Shown: piece by piece, positions 2,068 through 2,722 of the stretch
Layout: each line of letters begins with the position of its first letter
How positions within the stretch are numbered: the stretch's first letter is position 1
Assembly: GCA_004295245.1 (NCBI GenBank)
Contig: REAR01000065.1
Coordinates: forward strand, 1-48,450
From: Sphingobacteriales bacterium
GTDB lineage: Bacteria > Bacteroidota > Bacteroidia > Chitinophagales > Chitinophagaceae
Direction of reading: 5' to 3'
Length of the DNA stretch: 48,450 bases
Translations under genes and position numbers: made by a program
Notes under the pieces: model-generated
Seen by the model: the letters and a program-made list of their open reading frames with translations, nothing else
Databases searched by the model: none
What the model was told of the DNA's origin: nothing

Positions 2068-2084
2068 TAATAGCTATAACAGAA

Positions 2085-2161
2085 GAAATAAAAAAAGCGG
2101 CAAAAGCCGCTTTCAATAGTTGTACCCAGGATGGGAGTTGAACCCACACTCGCATTGCTGC
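2085..2161. repeat. Direct repeat copy 1: terminator plus 3' half of tRNA-Leu
   Basis: This 77-base segment matches 2461-2536 apart from one substitution and one inserted base. It includes the hairpin terminator and the variable-arm, T-arm and acceptor 3' half of the tRNA-Leu(UAA) gene. The two copies bracket the GIY-YIG ORF, as expected if a segment was inserted at the tRNA gene with duplication of its 3' end. Confidence 0.9.
2087..2114 (-). terminator. Rho-independent terminator after tRNA-Leu remnant
   Basis: Stem AAAGCGGC / GCCGCTTT with a TTTT loop, followed on the minus strand by a run of T (2087-2093 on the plus strand reads as A). It is a copy of the terminator at 2464-2490. Confidence 0.8.
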
Positions 2162-2206
2162 AATCCCGATTTTTTTAATCGGGACGCGTCTGCCATTCCA
2201 CCACCA
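2123..2206 (-). pseudogene. tRNA-Leu-like remnant
   Basis: On the minus strand this reads like a tRNA-Leu: a GGTGGTGGAATGGCAGACGCG D-arm region, then an anticodon-arm region, and a 3' half identical to that of the intact tRNA-Leu(UAA) at 2498-2583. It should not be functional. The 5' acceptor strand (AAACTGG) pairs at only about 4 of 7 positions with CCTGGGT, and the anticodon arm is replaced by an A-rich hairpin (TCCCGATT / AATCGGGA) with no normal 7-base loop. Its D-arm differs from the intact neighbour, so the 5' part seems to come from another tRNA-Leu. It overlaps the 3' end of the GIY-YIG ORF. Confidence 0.75.
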
Positions 2207-2438
2207 GTTTCTTAATATAATTTCTGCTTTTCATTTTTTTTATATGTCTTTCCGCTGCCATTGCTTCTTGCTCTGAAGAAAAAGCTTTTTGAGCCAGCAA
2301 AGAATAGAGCTTGCAATTTTTTGTCGCAGTAACTTTTCCTTTGTTATGTCGCGTTTCTAATCTAAGTAGCGGATTGGTAGAATATCCAACGTAGTACTTA
2401 TTGCAGTTTTGAGAAAAGAGTATGTAAACATAAAACAT
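2175..2438 (-). CDS. GIY-YIG nuclease-domain protein whose C-terminus is encoded by tRNA-like sequence
   Basis: 87 codons. It begins MFYVYILFSQNCNKYYVGYS, the YVYIL...YYVGYS pattern of the GIY-YIG nuclease core, and continues through PLLRLETRHNKGK (the conserved Arg region) and a helix with AAERHIKKMKSRNYIKKLV. This is the small single-domain class (UPF0213/YhbQ-like), whose members are presumed DNA endonucleases; some relatives are homing or repair enzymes. The last residues, LVVEWQTRPD, are read through the D-arm of the tRNA-Leu remnant. The ORF lies between two copies of the tRNA-Leu 3' end, which fits a small mobile or homing unit. Function is inferred from family only. Confidence 0.75.
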   Translation of the reverse strand: MFYVYILFSQNCNKYYVGYSTNPLLRLETRHNKGKVTATKNCKLYSLLAQKAFSSEQEAMAAERHIKKMKSRNYIKKLVVEWQTRPD

Positions 2439-2460
2439 ACATAAACTCTATTAGATTATA

Positions 2461-2536
2461 GAAATAAAAAAAGCGGCAAAAGCCGCTTTCAGTAGTGTAC
2501 CCAGGATGGGAGTTGAACCCACACTCGCATTGCTGC
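2461..2536. repeat. Direct repeat copy 2: terminator plus 3' half of intact tRNA-Leu
   Basis: This is the resident copy of the repeat described at 2085-2161. It comprises the terminator and the 3' half of the intact tRNA-Leu(UAA). Confidence 0.9.
2464..2490 (-). terminator. Terminator of tRNA-Leu(UAA)
   Basis: An 8-bp stem AAAGCGGC / GCCGCTTT with a TTTT loop lies directly downstream of the tRNA on the minus strand and is followed by T residues. It separates the tRNA from the GIY-YIG ORF. Confidence 0.8.
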
Positions 2537-2583
2537 GAACAGGATTTTAAGTCCTGCGTGTCTACCAGTTCCACCACCCGGGT
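2498..2583 (-). tRNA. tRNA-Leu (anticodon UAA)
   Basis: Minus-strand cloverleaf of 86 nt. The acceptor stem is ACCCGGG / CCTGGGT with discriminator A. The anticodon stem CAGGA / TCCTG closes the loop CTTAAAA, giving anticodon TAA. It has a long class II variable arm and a T-arm with GTTCAACTC. The 3' CCA is not encoded. It follows tRNA-Gly on the same strand. Confidence 0.93.
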
Positions 2584-2642: not shown

Positions 2643-2649
2643 AGTCTGG

Positions 2650-2722
<73 letters not shown>

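Follow-up and report, generated by a model that had tools for sequence, protein, structure and literature searches.

GIY-YIG genes paired with arm-swapped tRNA copies point to a minimal mobile element at tRNA genes of Bacteroidota

In a stretch of 48,450 nucleotides from a Sphingobacteriales bacterium (the window), a small GIY-YIG nuclease gene lies behind an intact tRNA-Leu gene and is followed by a second, broken copy of this tRNA. Comparison with related genomes indicated that the nuclease gene and the second tRNA copy are gained and lost together, as one unit. The best explanation, to which we give a probability of about 0.6, is that the nuclease is the sole gene of a mobile unit, which enters its cognate tRNA gene by recombination, with the tRNA remaining intact. 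The data point to an undescribed minimal mobile element across Bacteroidota; no description of this class was found in a full-text search of open-licence papers, and one may exist elsewhere.

The tRNA-Leu locus and its nuclease

Read along the minus strand, the locus consists of tRNA-Gly, intact tRNA-Leu(UAA), terminator, a 21-bp spacer, the GIY-YIG ORF, the second tRNA-Leu copy and a second terminator, with the following features.

2647..2722, minus strand: tRNA-Gly(GCC), next upstream; together with tRNA-Leu it forms the context of the empty site, conserved in 27 genomes
2497..2583, minus strand: intact tRNA-Leu(UAA) (ARAGORN; Rfam RF00005, 55 bits)
2460..2496, minus strand: terminator of the intact tRNA-Leu, repeat copy 1 (direct-repeat comparison)
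2175..2438, minus strand: GIY-YIG nuclease ORF, 87 amino acids (ORF and PF01541)
2178..2207, minus strand: final ten codons of the ORF, LVVEWQTRPD, which coincide with the D-arm half of the broken tRNA-Leu (sequence and alignment)
2164..2184, minus strand: hairpin TCCCGATT-AAAAA-AATCGGGA, which substitutes for positions 28-45 of the tRNA, the anticodon arm
2122..2213, minus strand: broken (psi) tRNA-Leu, consisting of the D-arm half, the hairpin and an intact variable/T/acceptor-3' part (repeats and alignment)
2084..2120, minus strand: second copy of the terminator (direct-repeat comparison)

Two direct repeats were identified, one of 37 nt with 97% identity (2084-2120 and 2460-2496) and one of 53 nt with 92% identity (2121-2173 and 2496-2548), and the local alignment score of the flanking repeats was 70, compared to approximately 11 in shuffled sequences. 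The initial annotation, made from the sequence alone, had proposed that the 3' half of tRNA-Leu and its terminator are doubled and that the tail of the ORF is encoded by a tRNA-Leu remnant, and both proposals were borne out. It had also described the second copy as carrying a different D arm; an arm is indeed altered, but the D arm is recognisable and it is the anticodon arm that has been replaced. ARAGORN reported a complete tRNA-Leu(UAA) at 2497-2583 only and called no tRNA in the broken copy. No intron family of Rfam matched at this locus, whose tRNA is intact.

The ORF matched PF01541 with 47.7 bits (curated cut-off 22.6; E 2e-12), and its residues Y5, Y16, G18, R26 and E63, which are the catalytic residues of the superfamily, are invariant in an alignment of 20 sequences (A2). 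The AF2 model of the protein (pLDDT 88.9) found its best PDB match in UPF0213. By sequence profile the nearest solved relatives were likewise UPF0213, followed by SLX1 (7CQ2, E 6e-8), whereas I-TevI (E 0.096) and UvrC (E 0.81) gave weaker matches; an activity directed at DNA structure is thus to be taken seriously as an alternative. The initial annotation had spoken of a homing-type nuclease; the protein is closer to UPF0213 and SLX1 than to I-TevI or SegB. Unlike known homing enzymes, the protein is a bare catalytic domain without a DNA-binding domain. The nuclease gene is under purifying selection, with pN/pS values of 0.15-0.41 between species, synonymous change being saturated in many pairs. 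An origin as phage or plasmid cargo was considered and rejected, as the window protein had no match among 50,697 records of phages and 72,556 of plasmids; A1 had no match among viral contigs.

Empty sites, distribution and tRNA isotypes

The orthologous tRNA-Gly/tRNA-Leu locus was compared in 27 genomes from the same family and order. Two loci, those of the window genome and of G006, are filled and contain both the nuclease and the tRNA-Leu 3' copy, while the 25 empty ones contain a single tRNA-Leu and neither of the two. G002, a genome of the same genus, has an empty site with the same upstream genes as the window locus. The initial annotation had suggested looking for empty sites in close strains; they were found at 25 orthologous loci. 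A second locus, coaX/tRNA-Phe, was compared in 30 Flavobacterium species, of which 3 are filled, all with a broken copy and a hairpin, and 27 are empty, with one tRNA-Phe and no remnant. The empty sites at both tRNA-Leu and tRNA-Phe remove two ancestral intact tRNA genes as an explanation.

The window family was used as a query against 60 genomes of the same taxonomic family and against a species-wide genome set; of the 133 ORFs obtained, 113 have a flanking direct repeat clearly above shuffles. In the recomputed Bacteroidota set, 115 of 131 ORFs have tRNA sequence within ~260 bp; the initial annotation had suggested a search of this phylum for small GIY-YIG ORFs beside tRNA genes. In 84 cases tRNA sequence is present on both sides, and the amino acid is identical across the sides in 82 of them. 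The set of 131 is biased, because it was seeded with tRNA-linked members. A less biased set comprises all matches at E<=1e-6 in five closed genomes, 44 loci, of which 40 were read; the four others are mostly weak matches. According to automatic criteria, a tRNA accompanied by one or more additional partial copies is present at 22 of the 40, and in three more (L306, L312 and L314) broken tRNA copies were seen by eye. At L308 (G452:C1:2258700-2260500) a GIY-YIG gene follows an intact tmRNA with a direct repeat of ~55 bp on each side, so that tmRNA may be a further target. The other 14 loci mostly belong to a more divergent GIY-YIG subgroup, and several of them have 50-135 bp direct repeats on their flanks that are partly palindromic. 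At L309, L310, L319, L321, L335 and L336, divergent GIY-YIG genes lie away from tRNAs between direct repeats of 50-135 bp that contain palindromes such as GTCATCCTGAA...TTTCAGGATCTG; these may be a second kind of nuclease/repeat pair.

At E<=1e-12 the GIY-YIG family was present in 178 of 296 sampled Bacteroidota genomes, with up to 18 matches per genome, tRNA-linked and other members being pooled in these counts. In the tree set, the protein family occupies this position at tRNAs for 13 amino acids; the closed genomes add further types and a tmRNA. A form B unit (see below) at tRNA-Asn was found on a contig labelled Candidatus Omnitrophota (L083), and occurrence beyond Bacteroidota is possible. 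The window genome (G000) contains a second unit behind tRNA-Val(UAC), in which the start codon directly follows the T-run of the terminator, the tRNA 3' part and terminator are repeated downstream of the ORF, and a hairpin, TTCCGCA-ATAGA-TGCGGAA, replaces the anticodon arm. A third G000 unit, on C133, is in tandem, and its repeated RNA end, as read from the sequence, resembles the 3' end of tRNA-Lys. Cargo other than a nuclease was found in a tRNA duplication in one instance, L009 (G009:C56:200055-203282), where two complete tRNA-Leu(UAA) genes ~1 kb apart surround a Fic-like gene, according to the ORF reading.

The nuclease tree of 126 sequences, 111 of them labelled, follows the tRNA isotype and not the host. 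The isotype label required 31 changes on the tree, compared to 79 for shuffled labels and 49 if labels were permuted within genomes only (minimum 39 of 500), whereas the genome label required 94, compared to 101 when shuffled, and nuclease lineages are therefore tied to tRNA isotype across families and classes. Isotype fidelity could also follow from spread by homology only, and is thus no proof of sequence-specific cutting. The nuclease of L098 shares 74-77% identity with its counterparts in three Flavobacterium genomes (L100, L101 and L102), whereas its CoaX shares only 56-57% with theirs, and this sequence comparison shows one case of horizontal transfer. The initial proposal of a minimal tRNA-targeting element carrying only a nuclease holds in so far as the unit is nuclease-only and isotype-faithful, comes and goes together with its tRNA copy, leaves one intact tRNA and has been transferred horizontally at least once. 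The proposal did not include the exchange of an arm for a hairpin, the mirror form that rebuilds the 5' end, the tandem arrays or the phylum-wide range.

The swapped arm, unit forms and arrays

About three quarters of the loci (101 of 133) have a hairpin that is present in the broken copy and missing from the intact tRNA, a count that includes a few AT-rich or terminator-located hairpins that possibly arose by chance. It is the most constant non-coding part of the unit. The stem is mostly of 6-8 bp and the loop of 3-5 nt; the 5' strand is usually TCCCGA or TCCCGC, and the commonest form is TCCCGA-loop-TCGGGA. Hairpins were detected in 80 of 128 copy windows, compared to 4 of 128 shuffled, 4 of 333 flank and 2 of 131 ORF windows. 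The hairpin replaces a defined arm, namely the anticodon, T or D arm. The exact anticodon arm (27 to 45, or 26-44, 28-46) is replaced at approximately 20 loci of several isotypes, whereas the hairpin takes the place of positions 56 to 62 (T loop) in tRNA-Phe, 50/51 to 59/60 in tRNA-Asp and 24/25 to 36 in tRNA-Asn, and that of the D arm in some tRNA-Pro and tRNA-Phe. Mapped on the nuclease tree, the arm label required 17 changes, compared to 28 when shuffled (minimum 24).

A search of 395 genomes for the hairpin in its tRNA context, GCATCCCGA-N2-8-TCGGGARGGTC, returned 14 matches, none inside an intact tRNA, and 0 control matches. Starting from the hairpin, a nuclease was found alongside at 8 of 9 judgeable distinct loci, L342 and L352 being assigned via nuclease-hit coordinates; three loci are at contig ends. 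The possibility that the TCCCGA hairpin is simply a genome-wide REP of the nuclease was rejected: the unit-bearing genomes G000, G006, G075 and G069 contain 33, 65, 60 and 32 such hairpins, but 41 are present in G005, where the nuclease gave no match, and the G000 hairpins that were read are mostly part of other dispersed sequence. In G000 a dispersed repeat, GTGTGCGACGCAA-TCCCGAAGTTTCGGGA-CT(T/G)A, carries the same hairpin motif outside tRNAs in many places (L144-L158). At L101 (the end of the second unit) and L080, a hairpin lies within an existing hairpin (TCCCGAAGCGTC-CTCCCGAAGCGTCGGGAG) and within a terminator loop; these nested hairpins represent repeated insertion of the same motif.

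Units were found in two forms. The intact tRNA is upstream in form A (115 loci), and it is downstream in form B (18 loci), in which the broken copy is upstream and the stop codon of the ORF is often the TAG at tRNA positions 8-10. Both forms occur among close relatives at one isotype, as at tRNA-Leu(CAA), where L129 and L137 are of form A and L131 is of form B. The terminators on the two sides of form A units are alike at 38 of 63 loci and unlike at 25. The unlike pairs favour an imported terminator, whereas the alike pairs, together with a repeat at L207 that extends into the apparently native flank and reaches the start codon, favour duplication in place or later homogenisation.

Closed genomes contain tandem arrays of up to 7 units, with a period of 306-450 bp in most. 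In G069, tandem arrays without a nuclease consist of the tRNA 3' part with hairpin plus terminator; two of them, L159 and L160 (G069:C19:529500-531900; C20:1052300-1054000), contain 7 tRNA-Met units of 123 bp and 4 tRNA-Phe units of 108 bp. G006 also has tandem broken tRNA and terminator sequences with the nuclease absent in cis. Several broken tRNA-Phe and tRNA-Leu copies are found per locus in this genome (L216 on C4; L021/L163 on C9), with palindromes in the D arm, the anticodon arm or the acceptor. At L213 (G024), the unit-bearing tRNA-Phe segment is inverted with respect to recQ relative to its kin L214-L216, and an additional psi-tRNA 5' fragment with a hairpin lies upstream of the intact tRNA.

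Possible mechanism and comparison with known systems

The proposed mobile unit, of ~300-450 bp, would consist of the GIY-YIG gene and a copy of the cognate tRNA with one arm turned into a hairpin, the terminator usually being included. We infer that it enters the chromosome by recombination in tRNA sequence: a crossover 3' of the hairpin would give intact tRNA, terminator, nuclease and broken tRNA (form A), a crossover 5' of it would give broken tRNA, nuclease and intact tRNA (form B), and one working tRNA would stay with the host in either case. Tandem arrays and exact loss of the unit would result from recombination between the direct repeats. The nuclease may, as phage SegB suggests by analogy, cut or nick the intact tRNA gene of the empty site and so start the exchange, and the swapped arm might protect the tRNA copy of the unit itself. 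The intact tRNA beside the unit should nevertheless remain a target, and self-cutting requires an explanation. The nuclease-free arrays of G069 and G006 and the lack of a DNA-binding domain also count against this mechanism, as does the mixture of 38 alike and 25 unlike terminator pairs at the 63 form A loci, with which the terminator may either come with the unit or be duplicated in place.

Four other explanations were weighed. The unit may be a passive rider that spreads and multiplies when DNA taken up by the cell undergoes ordinary homologous recombination with tRNA sequence; the nuclease would have another job and start no exchange. Isotype fidelity would then reflect the homology that such recombination requires, any direct repeat can be expected to give arrays, and hairpin-bearing arrays do exist without a nuclease in cis; however, the same protein family is found at 13 tRNA amino-acid types and a tmRNA with other cargo only once, and its catalytic residues are invariant, which makes this reading unlikely. 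It is distinctly unlikely, in our estimation, that a structure-specific, SLX1-like nuclease acts on the hairpin and on that of the tRNA or terminator when these are extruded or in single-stranded form, with an insertion that duplicates the segment between two nicks and with the nuclease-free arrays as non-autonomous forms, comparable to REPs and RAYT. The unlike terminators speak against it, as does the tracking of isotype by nuclease lineage, which a pure structure-reader need not show, and the dispersed TCCCGA hairpins follow the presence of the nuclease poorly, as in G005. It draws on the rank of SLX1 as the next solved relative after UPF0213, ahead of I-TevI and UvrC, on the constancy of the hairpin, on the existence of nuclease-free arrays, on the L207 repeat and on the palindrome-containing direct repeats around several relatives away from tRNAs.

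Integrative islands are recognised by a restored tRNA and by repeats of its 3' end. The same arrangement is seen here, and the repeats might be attL and attR sites of a unit moved by a tyrosine integrase in trans. This is very improbable, as units of 300-450 bp are too small for an integrase ORF and neither the arm swap, nor form B, nor an isotype-specific nuclease lineage is expected of attachment sites. Practically no weight is given to the view that an ancestor had tRNA-Leu duplicated in tandem around an unrelated gene and that one of the two tRNAs then decayed. Decay is indeed seen in the second copy, but the initial annotation had named two intact tRNA-Leu genes in relatives as the sign of such a history, and 25 of the 27 genomes have a single one without a second copy; similarly, 27 of 30 Flavobacterium species have one tRNA-Phe without a remnant, and the same gene family recurs at many isotypes. 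Ancestral duplication is thus refuted by the empty sites.

A broader proposal, to which we would give somewhat less than an even chance, is that of a phylum-wide class of perhaps the smallest autonomous mobile DNA, in which a bare GIY-YIG domain is combined with an arm-swapped tRNA copy serving as recombination port and protected end, with lineages dedicated to isotypes and with the nuclease-free hairpin/tRNA arrays as non-autonomous derivatives. If the proposed movement takes place, ~85 amino acids that form a bare catalytic domain, without a DNA-binding part, would suffice for site-specific mobility, and tRNA genes would be under constant attack and repair throughout the phylum. Isotype-dedicated lineages with a defined swapped arm are directly testable nuclease-target pairs, and such units would account for unusual remnants of tRNAs, for C-terminal tails encoded by tRNA sequence and for some of the assembly breaks in Bacteroidota genomes.

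Among known systems, SegB of T-even phages is a free-standing GIY-YIG enzyme that cuts within tRNA genes, at the motif RAWTSGAAC, and causes tandem amplification through recombination that needs UvsX/UvsY; donor alleles of SegB-type enzymes are reportedly cut poorly (PMC13096335). We read this motif as the complement of the T-loop. The likeness lies in a free-standing GIY-YIG enzyme in tRNA genes, tandem amplification and location near many isotypes (PMC13096335, PMC2988022). As in Seg-type systems, the units are present or absent at an orthologous site and involve no intron or intein. However, SegB is a phage gene product of 221 amino acids, whereas the window gene is chromosomal and encodes 87, without the region beyond the GIY-YIG domain that belongs to the Seg type, and no duplicated or arm-swapped tRNA surrounds SegB in T4 (repeat score 8, compared to 70 at the window locus). 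Sequence kinship of SegB with the window family was rejected, the similarity not being significant (pairwise E 0.06, HMM 0.33). The closest solved relatives in sequence and fold, the UPF0213 proteins BH0048 (1ZG2) and EF2693 (1YWL), have the same length and domain but are apparently known from structures only, and no link between UPF0213 and tRNA duplication was found in the open-licence literature. SLX1 shares the GIY-YIG fold but is eukaryotic, has an SLX4 partner and an extra C-terminal domain, and is not mobile.

Homing of group I introns differs in its self-splicing intron, which is absent from the window locus. REP/REPIN-RAYT systems similarly combine short GC-rich palindromes with one small nuclease gene and have nuclease-free copies, but RAYT is a Y1 HUH transposase, whereas the protein here is of the GIY-YIG type and the palindrome lies inside a tRNA copy. 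Integrative elements at tRNA sites also insert at tRNA genes and rebuild the tRNA, and the direct repeats of the tRNA end and the retained intact tRNA are common to both; such elements, however, encode an integrase and in most cases bring along many kilobases of cargo, whereas the unit of 300-450 bp described here has a single ORF, one small nuclease gene, with a hairpin-swapped tRNA copy and no integrase of its own. The unit class lacks the integrase of tRNA islands and the sequence feature of the Seg type, but would work like a free-standing homing enzyme.
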